From contig QGSR01000023.1 in NCBI GenBank assembly GCA_003387805.1, forward strand, positions 1-12,982: 12,982 nt of DNA. Reading direction: 5' to 3'. Position numbers and translations under genes: made by a program. The notes beneath the pieces were generated by a model, which worked only from the letters and a program-made list of their open reading frames with translations, was not told where the DNA came from and did no database searches. The stretch is from Bacillota bacterium (GTDB lineage Bacteria; Bacillota; Limnochordia; Limnochordales; ZCTH02-B6). Positions 11,462-12,982 of this stretch are shown here, in pieces (the first letter of the stretch is position 1; each line of letters begins with the position of its first letter).

Positions 11462-11802
11462 GGAGCCGGAGCCCAGTACGTTGGGCTTGGCGCGGCCGGT
11501 CGGGGGTCGAGCCAGAGCCGGCGGGCGGTTGGCCGGGCACCCGCGTTCCAGCGGTTTACGGCCGTGCCGCGATGTGGCGGCCGTGCCGCGATGCCGCGGT
11601 CGTGCCGTGATGGCGCGGCCTTGCCGCGATGGCGTTGCCTCGCTGTGGCCCAAAGTCTTATCCTTGTGCGCGGCCGCAGCCTTTCCGTGGGCCGCATCCA
11701 CGCTGGGTGGCCCGCGGCAGCGCGCCTCCGTTTGTCCCCGCCCCGCGCACATATGGACCGCTCCCTCGCGCACACTACGTGTCACGGAGAGAGGGGAACG
11801 GC
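11400..11802. other. Gene-free repeat-bearing spacer
   Basis: No supported gene lies in this stretch. It holds the last part of the 27-bp repeat, then GC-rich unique sequence, the 19-bp repeat array (11559-11634), and about 170 bp of unique sequence leading to the small gene at 11803. Open frames crossing it are repeat-derived or lack ribosome binding sites. I see no convincing promoter for the downstream gene and no T-tailed terminator for the upstream operon, so read-through from the hydrolase is possible. Confidence 0.7.
11559..11634 (+). repeat. 19-bp tandem repeat, four copies
   Basis: Copies lie at 11559-11577, 11578-11596, 11597-11615 and 11616-11634, with consensus CGGCCGTGCCGCGATGNCG. 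A decayed fifth copy may follow (TTGCCTCGCTG). Because 19 is not a multiple of three, the array cannot be a maintained protein repeat and is best read as non-coding. It is unrelated in sequence to the 27-bp repeat about 100 bp upstream. Confidence 0.85.
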
Positions 11803-12006
11803 ATGAAGCGGCGCCGGGACGAAATTGACGAAATTCTGCGGTTTGTGCAGGAACATCCCGAGTCGTACGCCAGCCTGGCCGTCTGCCGCCGGGCGCTGGA
11901 CGGCGGCCTCGAGCGGGTTACCGGCGACACGCTGCTCCAGCTGGAGCAGTACTTGCACGAGGCGCCCGATGACGAGATCGAGGCGTACTATACGATTATC
12001 ACCTGA
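11803..12006 (+). CDS. Unrecognised 67-aa acidic small protein
   Basis: I do not recognise this protein. The ATG is preceded by GAGAGAGGGG six nt upstream, a good ribosome binding site. After a basic start (MKRRRDE) the protein is acidic and probably all-helical: EIDEILRFVQEHPESYASLA, then CRRALDGGLERVTGDTLLQL and EQYLHEAPDDEIEAYYTII. There is one cysteine (Cys28), and no signal peptide or membrane segment. The amphipathic pattern and clean ribosome binding site favour a real gene. The same frame is open far upstream through the repeats, but that part lacks protein-like character. It follows the hydrolase gene on the same strand after about 400 bp; a terminator-like hairpin lies about 190 nt downstream. 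Confidence 0.65.
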   Translation: MKRRRDEIDEILRFVQEHPESYASLAVCRRALDGGLERVTGDTLLQLEQYLHEAPDDEIEAYYTIIT

Positions 12007-12049
12007 GGGGCCAGCCGCCGCCCGGCCGTCGTGGGCGCCAGGCACAAGG

Positions 12050-12128
12050 CTCAAGAGCGAGGCTTGCCCGCCACAGCAATGCTCGGAAATGAGGCTTCGC
12101 CCACAATTAGACCTCACTCTTGAGGCTT
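12050..12128 (+). repeat. Repeat array A: three CTC-N6-GAGGCTT units
   Basis: Cores lie at 12050-12065, 12082-12097 and 12113-12128, spaced 32 and 31 bp. Each is CTC, six variable bases, then GAGGCTT. The variable bases are AAGAGC, GGAAAT and ACTCTT; the first and third are complementary except for one C/A mismatch. Units 1 and 3 can therefore fold into one imperfect long stem enclosing unit 2, or all three can form tiny CTC/GAG hairpins. Array B (12296-12374) is a diverged relative. Confidence 0.75.
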
Positions 12129-12195
12129 GCGGCGGGGCCTGCTTTAAGCAGCGGCGGCTGTAAGAAACCGCCAGGCAAGACAGGAAACGGCATCG

Positions 12196-12224
12196 CGAAA
12201 ACGCCGACGTCATCGGCGTTTTCG
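12196..12224 (+). terminator. Terminator-like perfect hairpin, possibly bidirectional
   Basis: CGAAAACGCCGA (12196-12207) pairs perfectly with TCGGCGTTTTCG (12213-12224) around CGTCA. The T tract is within the right arm rather than after it, and the A tract is mirrored on the left, as in hairpins that work in both directions. It lies between repeat arrays A and B, and could end the transcript of the 67-aa gene about 190 nt upstream. Confidence 0.55.
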
Positions 12225-12295
12225 TTACGCCCCAGTCACTGGTCCGTGGGGGAGCGGCCGGTCCGGTGTCGGTCCACTTGCAGCACCGGCTTAAG

Positions 12296-12374
12296 CCTCA
12301 AAAACGAGGACTAATTTCTGGCCAACGCTCGAAAACGAGGCTTAGCCCGACATTAGTCCTCGTTTTTGAGGACT
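12296..12374 (+). repeat. Repeat array B: three-unit array with a perfect 20-bp inverted repeat
   Basis: Cores start at 12297, 12328 and 12359, exactly 31 bp apart: CTC, then AAAAAC, GAAAAC or GTTTTT, then GAGG. Units 1 and 3 form a perfect 20-bp inverted repeat, CCTCAAAAACGAGGACTAAT (12296-12315) with its reverse complement at 12352-12371. The 36-nt loop contains unit 2, itself able to form a small CTCG-AAAA-CGAG hairpin. It is noticeably richer in A and T than its surroundings. The stretch after unit 2 (GAGGCTTAGCCCGACATTAG) closely matches that in array A, so the two arrays are homologous. Confidence 0.85.
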
Positions 12375-12613
12375 GTGCTGCACGACGCTCGGACCGCGAC
12401 CAGCCGTCCACGGGACCCGGTAACGACGGGGAATGGCGGGCGTCGACATGGCGGAAACAGCAAATGCCGTGAAAACATCGACGGCGTCGGCGCTGGCGAG
12501 AGGCCCGGTTCGCTGCGGCGCCGGCGGAGAAGGCACGAGGCGCGGACCGCGGGCTAGGCTGCATACAATGAACCGCGGGCCGGGACCCGAGAAGACGGCG
12601 CTTTTCGTCGGCG

Positions 12614-12731
12614 TCGACCCCGATACCGCTGTTGGGCTCGACACGACCGCTGGGCGCGACGTGACAGCCGAACTCGACCGGGCTCCGGGGTTGAGGTTGC
12701 CACTGGTCTCGACGCTGTCACGGGGCTCGAC
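12614..12731 (+). other. Possible decayed coding repeat with a frame slip
   Basis: TCGAC recurs at 12614, 12638, 12674, 12709 and 12727. The spacings are 24, 36, 35 and 18, all multiples of three except 35. Read in the frame of 12433 it gives VGVDPDTAVGLDTTAGRD; after a one-base shift near 12690 it gives VATGLDAVTGLDSVSAVN. This looks like a V/T-GLD repeat protein interrupted by a single-base change or error, but no family is recognised and chance remains possible. Confidence 0.22.
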
Positions 12732-12824
12732 TCGGTCTCCGCCGTCAACGTCAGCGCCGGAGCCGTCACGGCAGTGAGCGCAGCCGCCGGAGCCGCCCCG
12801 GAGCCGCCCCGCGCGCCGGCTCGC

Positions 12825-12884
12825 CCGTTACCGCTGCCGTTACCGCTACAGTTGCCGCTGCCGCCGCCGCTGCCGCTGCCGCCG
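12825..12884 (+). repeat. 12-bp tandem repeat, five copies
   Basis: Five consecutive 12-bp units begin at 12825, 12837, 12849, 12861 and 12873. The first is CCGTTACCGCTG, and units change gradually into CCG/CTG triplets. The period is four codons: one plus frame reads Pro-Leu repeats and one minus frame Ser-Gly-Asn-Gly repeats. It is either a slippage-prone microsatellite or a low-complexity protein segment. Confidence 0.75.
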
Positions 12885-12982
12885 CCGGGCCCGGGCGTAC
12901 CCCCGGCCTCAATGCGCACGTCTCTTCTGCAAACAATCGACGCTCCGAGGAATTGCTTCCCACTTCCACTCTTGACAGTCTC

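Follow-up and report, generated by a model that had tools for sequence, protein, structure and literature searches.

Triads of short palindromes on a 31-bp lattice form a dispersed repeat family in a Bacillota genome and recur with changed letters in two others

Interspersed palindromes of bacterial genomes are often attributed to RAYT transposition in the accessible part of one account (PMC2817692), and the REP/BIME repeats are portrayed, in excerpts of two accounts, as dispersed extragenic palindromes that form regularly spaced clusters, bind several proteins and have a suggested role in chromosome organisation (PMC2817692, PMC3733652). According to the same excerpts, REPs usually number more than 100 copies (PMC2817692), and some REP families (CGTC-type) are listed without a transposase association (PMC3733652). 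A second comparison is offered by the Lrp/AsnC proteins, whose targets are described, in the available sections of two papers, as clusters of 13-15 bp imperfect palindromes that each bind one dimer, with site centres two or three helical turns apart; for the autoregulatory region of Ss-LrpB, three cooperative sites and DNA wrapping are reported there (PMC2995911, PMC4046817). Our search of open-licence literature, in texts that were partly accessible, found no account of arrays like those described here. The nearest described repeats are REP/BIME and, judging from its sequence, the array family appears to be a variant of interspersed palindromic repeats.

The window, the whole 12,982-nucleotide stretch of DNA that was analysed, is contig C285 of the host assembly (G000; 2.37 Mb in 454 contigs). 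An initial annotation had described two arrays of three units at 31-32 bp spacing, and direct reading of the sequence bore this out: array A extends over 12049-12125 with unit spacings of 32 and 31 bp, and array B over 12296-12371 with spacings of 31 and 31 bp (Table 1). The six central letters of the units (N6) had also been given correctly, two A-T pairs of array B being G-C in array A and one pair being broken in A. Elsewhere in the window, a 67-codon open frame at 11803-12006, ending 42 bases before array A, and a 240-codon frame on the minus strand at 1089-1808, between phosphorylase and aconitase genes, have no Pfam match. GC-rich minisatellites occur within about 0.5 kb of arrays at 11559-11634 of the window (period 19 bp), at 1-105 of locus L051 (14) and at 1313-1423 of L202 (19).

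Table 1. Units of arrays A and B and features of the linker between them, in window coordinates
Feature	Position	Strand	Sequence	Remark
Array A unit 1	12049-12062	+	GCTCAAGAGCGAGG (GCTC AAGAGC GAGG)	Sequence read directly
Array A unit 2	12081-12094	+	GCTCGGAAATGAGG (GCTC GGAAAT GAGG)	32 bp after unit 1, an exceptional spacing
Array A unit 3	12112-12125	+	CCTCACTCTTGAGG (CCTC ACTCTT GAGG)	Sequence read directly
Array B unit 1	12296-12309	+	CCTCAAAAACGAGG (CCTC AAAAAC GAGG)	Sequence read directly
Array B unit 2	12327-12340	+	GCTCGAAAACGAGG (GCTC GAAAAC GAGG)	Sequence read directly
Array B unit 3	12358-12371	+	CCTCGTTTTTGAGG (CCTC GTTTTT GAGG)	Exact complement of array B unit 1
Linker, A to B	12126-12295	+		Semi-conserved; its middle part lines up in register with the linkers elsewhere in G000
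Linker dyad/hairpin	12189-12231	.	GCGAAAACGCCGA CGTCA TCGGCGTTTTCG	Centre near 12210

Further copies, on which the initial annotation had staked its claim, proved to be plentiful in the host genome. A two-unit pattern allowing up to 3 mismatches gave 28 forward and 23 reverse matches in G000, and its reversed-letter control gave 0. Eighteen triads were aligned without gaps over 90 columns (alignment A1, which excludes array A with its 32-bp spacing, C302:822, C67 and C222), and a model with three local hairpins, R1, was built from them. R1 returned 46 matches at E <= 0.1, which merged across strands into 24 triads (72 units) on 11 contigs (C67, C134, C199, C209, C222, C285, C302, C343, C417, C441 and C450); 22 of the 24 were matched on both strands, partly by construction, as the hairpins of R1 are symmetric. 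Eighteen of these triads are training members of R1. Outside the training set are array A, C302:822 (E 0.008), and the triads of C222 and C67, one and three in number (best E 5e-7 to 0.036); only the three C67 triads first came to light through R1. Because the C222 copy has its first ~46 bases in common with C209 at a contig edge, there may be 23 rather than 24 distinct triads; conversely, true numbers may be higher, as in 9 of the 11 contigs no more than 1 kb separates an array from an end of the contig.

Within G000, triads occur both singly (C417) and in triad-linker-triad tandems. Tandem triads repeat at 245-248 bp, once at 266 bp, consistent with a period of 246 assigned by Tandem Repeats Finder on C67, and are separated by linkers of ~165-170 bp with a conserved middle; no linker was seen downstream of the last triad in C134, C343, C441 and C450. 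Averaged over 11 monomers, the linker shows a near-palindrome centred at +153.5 from the centre of unit 1, which corresponds in place to the linker dyad at 12189-12231 of the window.

Arrays of the same architecture were found in two further genomes. A three-unit pattern scan of a genome collection described as 84,980 species yielded 17 stretches, one of which was clearly genuine (Firmicutes bacterium UBA1393; L064, genome G060), and 13 of which were dismissed as chance or as GC-rich or tandem repeats. Three others, all from one Deltaproteobacteria MAG (L053, L059 and L062), have their first ~140 bp in common and then diverge. In the shared part, several C-rich/G-rich palindromes follow one another at intervals of roughly 30-31 bp and may represent a comparable multi-palindrome repeat in a different phylum. 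In G060, a pattern with up to 3 mismatches matched 35 places per strand and its controls 0. The contigs fetched from this genome hold, on 10 contigs, 18 complete triads and one with an unreadable third unit; units are near CCTCCAGCTGGAGG (CCTCCN4GGAGG), triads lie 238-260 bp apart, and one array (L095) has four units on the 31-bp lattice. In linkers of G060 (L097 ~130-205; L104 ~2510-2570), a hairpin such as GGCATGCCCGC...GCGGGCATGCC is followed by a similar CTTCTACCTGC-GTTTTGATG stretch. Among 12 genomes of the class of G060, G073 carries triads with units such as TCCACAGATCTGTGGA (TCCACN6GTGGA), with tandem distances of 196 bp (two arrays in L114) and 230 bp. A 53-nt terminator-like hairpin is present on both sides of G073 arrays, at 1265-1317 and 1777-1829 of L114, with 92% identity. 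R1 found one place in G073 at E 0.15, not significant alone; inspection of the sequence there showed a triad, with a second array following after 230 bp. R1 scored none of the G060 triads and none of the other G073 triads at the loci searched, and a shared origin of the three families is therefore not established.

Four overlapping sets of 72, 12, 398 and 398 genomes (in which G277 is G060 and G253 is G073) were also scanned with patterns and yielded few other candidates. At class level, 6 of 72 genomes had matches to the CCTC-type pattern, and at phylum level 17 of 398. Beyond G000, G060 and G073, the 398-genome set has 14 genomes with one or two such places each, near background given that the reversed-letter control matches in 6 genomes. 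Seven places read in six of the 398 genomes included no array, and all but two were chance; the two set aside we take to resemble RNase P RNA and a T-box. The match in G013 was dismissed as coding, and single matches in G008, G030, G045, G067, G043 and eight genomes of the 398-genome set are known from the pattern match alone. The G073-type pattern had 11 matches in G073 and zero in 396 of 397 other genomes; in the exception, it fell in a DnaA-box region. Either arrays of this build are rare and patchily distributed, or their letters diverge too quickly for pattern searches to follow.

A feature common to the three genomes is a spacing of 31 bp, retained despite varying spacers and N6, although the triads compared were selected at exactly 31 bp and array A has one spacing of 32 bp. 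A letter-blind scan for three equally spaced dyads, applied to loci chosen for holding arrays, gave 10 matches at spacing 31 against 0-4 at each other spacing from 20 to 45 in G000, and 15 against 0-1 in G060. The same scan showed no peak in 265 kb of G073 (5 matches at 31 and as many as 6 at other spacings) and zero matches at every spacing in 51 kb of G001. A motif scan of G073, with the motif taken from the two loci found first, gave 6 pairs at 31 bp (two of them at a new locus), 2 at 32 bp and 0 at the 23 other spacings from 20 to 44. Unit arms have changed on both sides, appearing as CCTC/GAGG, CCCC/GGGG, CGTC/GACG and CCAC/GTGG.

The triad as a whole is near-symmetric about unit 2. The spacer between units 1 and 2 (S12) is identical to the reverse complement of that between units 2 and 3 (S23) at 8.4 of 17 positions in G000 and at 7.1 in G060, where 4.25 are expected, and this likeness is no greater within than between triads (P 0.78 and 0.82, respectively), a pattern that fits a symmetric protein site and not a co-evolving stem. 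A conservation component at 10.33 bp is the strongest harmonic in G060 (P 0.0005); in G000, it has P 0.032, and the 15.5-bp harmonic is stronger. Genes flanking the arrays, as delimited by a crude ORF caller, look unrelated in kind and are co-directional at L044, L052, L096 and L101, convergent at L103 and L113, and divergent at L102 and L105, with L050 ambiguous.

These properties suggest a dispersed intergenic DNA element on which cooperating dimers of a putative protein would occupy a three-turn lattice for chromosome-scale organisation, a reading that is quite possible and that we favour tentatively. Its core would be the triad of 14-16 bp palindromes at 31-bp (three-turn) intervals, each palindrome a candidate site for a single dimer of a protein that binds DNA in a sequence-specific way; with three turns between neighbouring sites, three dimers would lie on one helix face and could thus bind cooperatively, and the DNA would probably be bent or wrapped by them. 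Triads occur singly or in tandem with a linker (every 245-266 bp in G000; 238-260 in G060; 196 and 230 in G073). Given the many sites and no evident regard to gene direction, the likeliest role would be chromosome-scale nucleoprotein organisation (marking, condensing or tethering) and not promoter control. Our preference is kept tentative because the 10.33-bp component is not the strongest in G000, because tests on the units disagree (see below) and because the letter-blind scan has no peak in G073. Weighing against binding by a protein, too, is that the tandem linkers look like an amplified repeat.

Among known binding systems, the arrays are most readily set beside Lrp/AsnC targets, which they resemble in having several ~15 bp palindromes three turns apart; unlike those targets, they come in tandem repeats and show no evident link to promoters. 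The Lrp/AsnC domain (PF01037) had 1 match in G000, 0 in G060 and 0 in G073, all incomplete assemblies, and an Lrp regulon is unsupported, the domain being undetected in two of the three carriers. Clusters of DnaA boxes that titrate or reactivate the initiator, of which datA and DARS are named examples, are a very improbable alternative. The sequence TCCACA...TGTGGA in the units of G073 comes near to inverted DnaA boxes, and a DnaA-box-rich stretch of another genome, upstream of a gene that appears to be dnaA, is matched by the G073 pattern as well; the best match to the box at one G073 locus has 2 mismatches. Against this, 45 of 54 G000 units and 53 of 54 G060 units lie 3-5 mismatches from TTATCCACA (raw counts), and on these counts DnaA boxes were rejected as the units of G000 and G060. 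In all three genomes, moreover, 9-mers with at most 1 mismatch from TTATCCACA are found near dnaA, and their DnaA proteins have GGRDHTTV in common. Among the families searched (Lrp/AsnC, Y1/RAYT and DnaA boxes), none was identified as the binding protein for the arrays.

The initial annotation had proposed that a stem between units 1 and 3 is kept by covariation, and array B does fold far better than its shuffles (z -8.8; 0 of 200 equal it), with array A alone at z -2.4 (3 of 200). Complementarity between the N6 of units 1 and 3 is 6/6 in array B and 5/6 in array A; in the other 17 triads it is 1-4/6, averaging 2.65/6 against 2.48/6 for mismatched triads (P 0.28), and the proposal did not hold for these further copies. 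With A and B added, P falls to 0.019, so the signal is carried by two ascertained cases; complementarity in A and B could reflect hairpin-templated correction at the locus, or chance among 19 triads. A permutation test compared complementarity within and between triads, using 18 triads each in G000 and G060 (with the exclusions of A1 and also without the first triad of L098, which is out of register and has Ns near unit 3, and the spurious match L044:6709). Units 1 and 3 gave P 0.059 in G000, array A excluded, and 0.93 in G060; self-pairing of units gave 0.09-0.996 over both genomes and both pairing rules, and the lowest single value was 0.034, for units 2 and 3 with wobble in G000. A long hairpin with unit 2 at its apex is likewise at shuffle level (covariation score 97/500, percentage paired 190/500). 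A unit 1-unit 3 stem was thus rejected as a family feature by the permutation, long-hairpin and 17-triad tests. For local hairpins of single units on A1, 0 of 500 column shuffles matched the score, the percentage paired or the cells changed on both sides, and 17 and 24 of 500 matched on two other measures; this result leans partly on the related C343 copies, and relatedness inflates such scores. Tests on the unit hairpins therefore disagree, column shuffles being exceeded and whole-arm permutation showing no excess.

In the linker, the hairpin at +153.5 does not covary significantly (P 0.11-0.17, linkers of L044 and L045 excluded), whereas a stem centred at +207 covaries above mismatched rows with a familywise P of 0.006 (15 linkers, that of C199 excluded), and a scan of whole monomers gave P 0.013 in 11 monomers. 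Differences in row composition may produce the +207 signal, and an RNA or cruciform signal is possible too; this covariation is the main remaining evidence for an RNA, or for a cruciform. Searches of Rfam returned 7 matches in 11700-12982 of the window, all far below the gathering score, and a sole match over 20 array loci, a TPP riboswitch away from the array (RF00059, 76 bits; L052 7538-7644, minus strand, contig C450). With no Rfam match for the arrays, a known RNA family was rejected.

A structured non-coding RNA of ~246 nt, tandemly repeated, with three small unit hairpins and linker stems and with array B as one long hairpin, seems quite unlikely. The fold of array B, the covariation of unit hairpins above column shuffles, and the linker-stem and whole-monomer signals all point towards it, and changes on both sides of a unit would suit RNA hairpins as well. 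It is opposed by the lack of excess complementarity between units 1 and 3 outside A and B, in the spacers and in the long hairpin; by a constant spacer length, though RNA loops need no fixed length; by the convergent as well as divergent gene contexts; by the lack of a sigma-70-like promoter in 11700-12982, a weak test; and by the absence of an Rfam family.

Like REP/BIME, the arrays are multicopy extragenic palindromes, with the host triads extragenic as judged from crude ORFs. Their 72 units in G000 fall below the more than 100 copies usual for REPs and, unlike the alternating orientation of REP/BIME, they form a fixed 31-bp lattice of self-symmetric units. The consensus of the 18 aligned G000 triads has no GT(A/G)G or CGTC tag beside the units, and a Y1 transposase/RAYT (PF01797) was found in 0 of the 3 carriers G000, G060 and G073 (incomplete assemblies), compared with 2 of 5 other genomes and 5 of 14 controls; with tag and RAYT both missing, membership in REP/BIME is unsupported. 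More broadly, the arrays might be a non-autonomous mobile or amplifying palindromic repeat (MITE- or REP-like), its hairpins recognised by a transposase or recombinase, in which the triad would be an end or attachment site, the linker would be co-copied and the enzyme would dictate the rigid spacing. We consider this rather unlikely. It accords with the intergenic, multicopy and patchy occurrence (under stricter filters, R1 matched none of 40 relatives of G000, including 4 from its own family, and pattern scans point only to G000, G060 and G073) and with tandems standing alongside single triads. The missing Y1 transposase speaks against it, a point weakened by its absence from three array-free genomes of the same family and by REP families that are transposase-free in the available part of one account (PMC3733652). 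Also against it, copies inside one genome are strongly diverged and yet keep spacing and symmetry. Matches were absent from viral contigs (pattern search) and from plasmids and phages (distant blastn), leaving a phage or plasmid origin unsupported as well. A CRISPR array was rejected, as the units within one triad differ and number three (four in one array).

Of the candidate roles named in the initial annotation, the protein-binding array is thus the one we favour, with the structured RNA and the mobile element retained as less probable rivals. Whether a putative new protein family in some Firmicutes organises the chromosome by binding dozens of three-site arrays, its site rewritten across species while the lattice is kept, is a narrower proposition that we regard as doubtful. 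If a protein underlies the family, it would be a DNA-organising or partition factor that has gone unrecognised and whose footprint is easy to spot; otherwise the family would be a mobile repeat or RNA of new build. In carriers where no RAYT was found, the family keeps its helical geometry while letters diverge both between and within genomes, and this fixed-spacing dyad geometry allows such elements to be searched for without sequence similarity.
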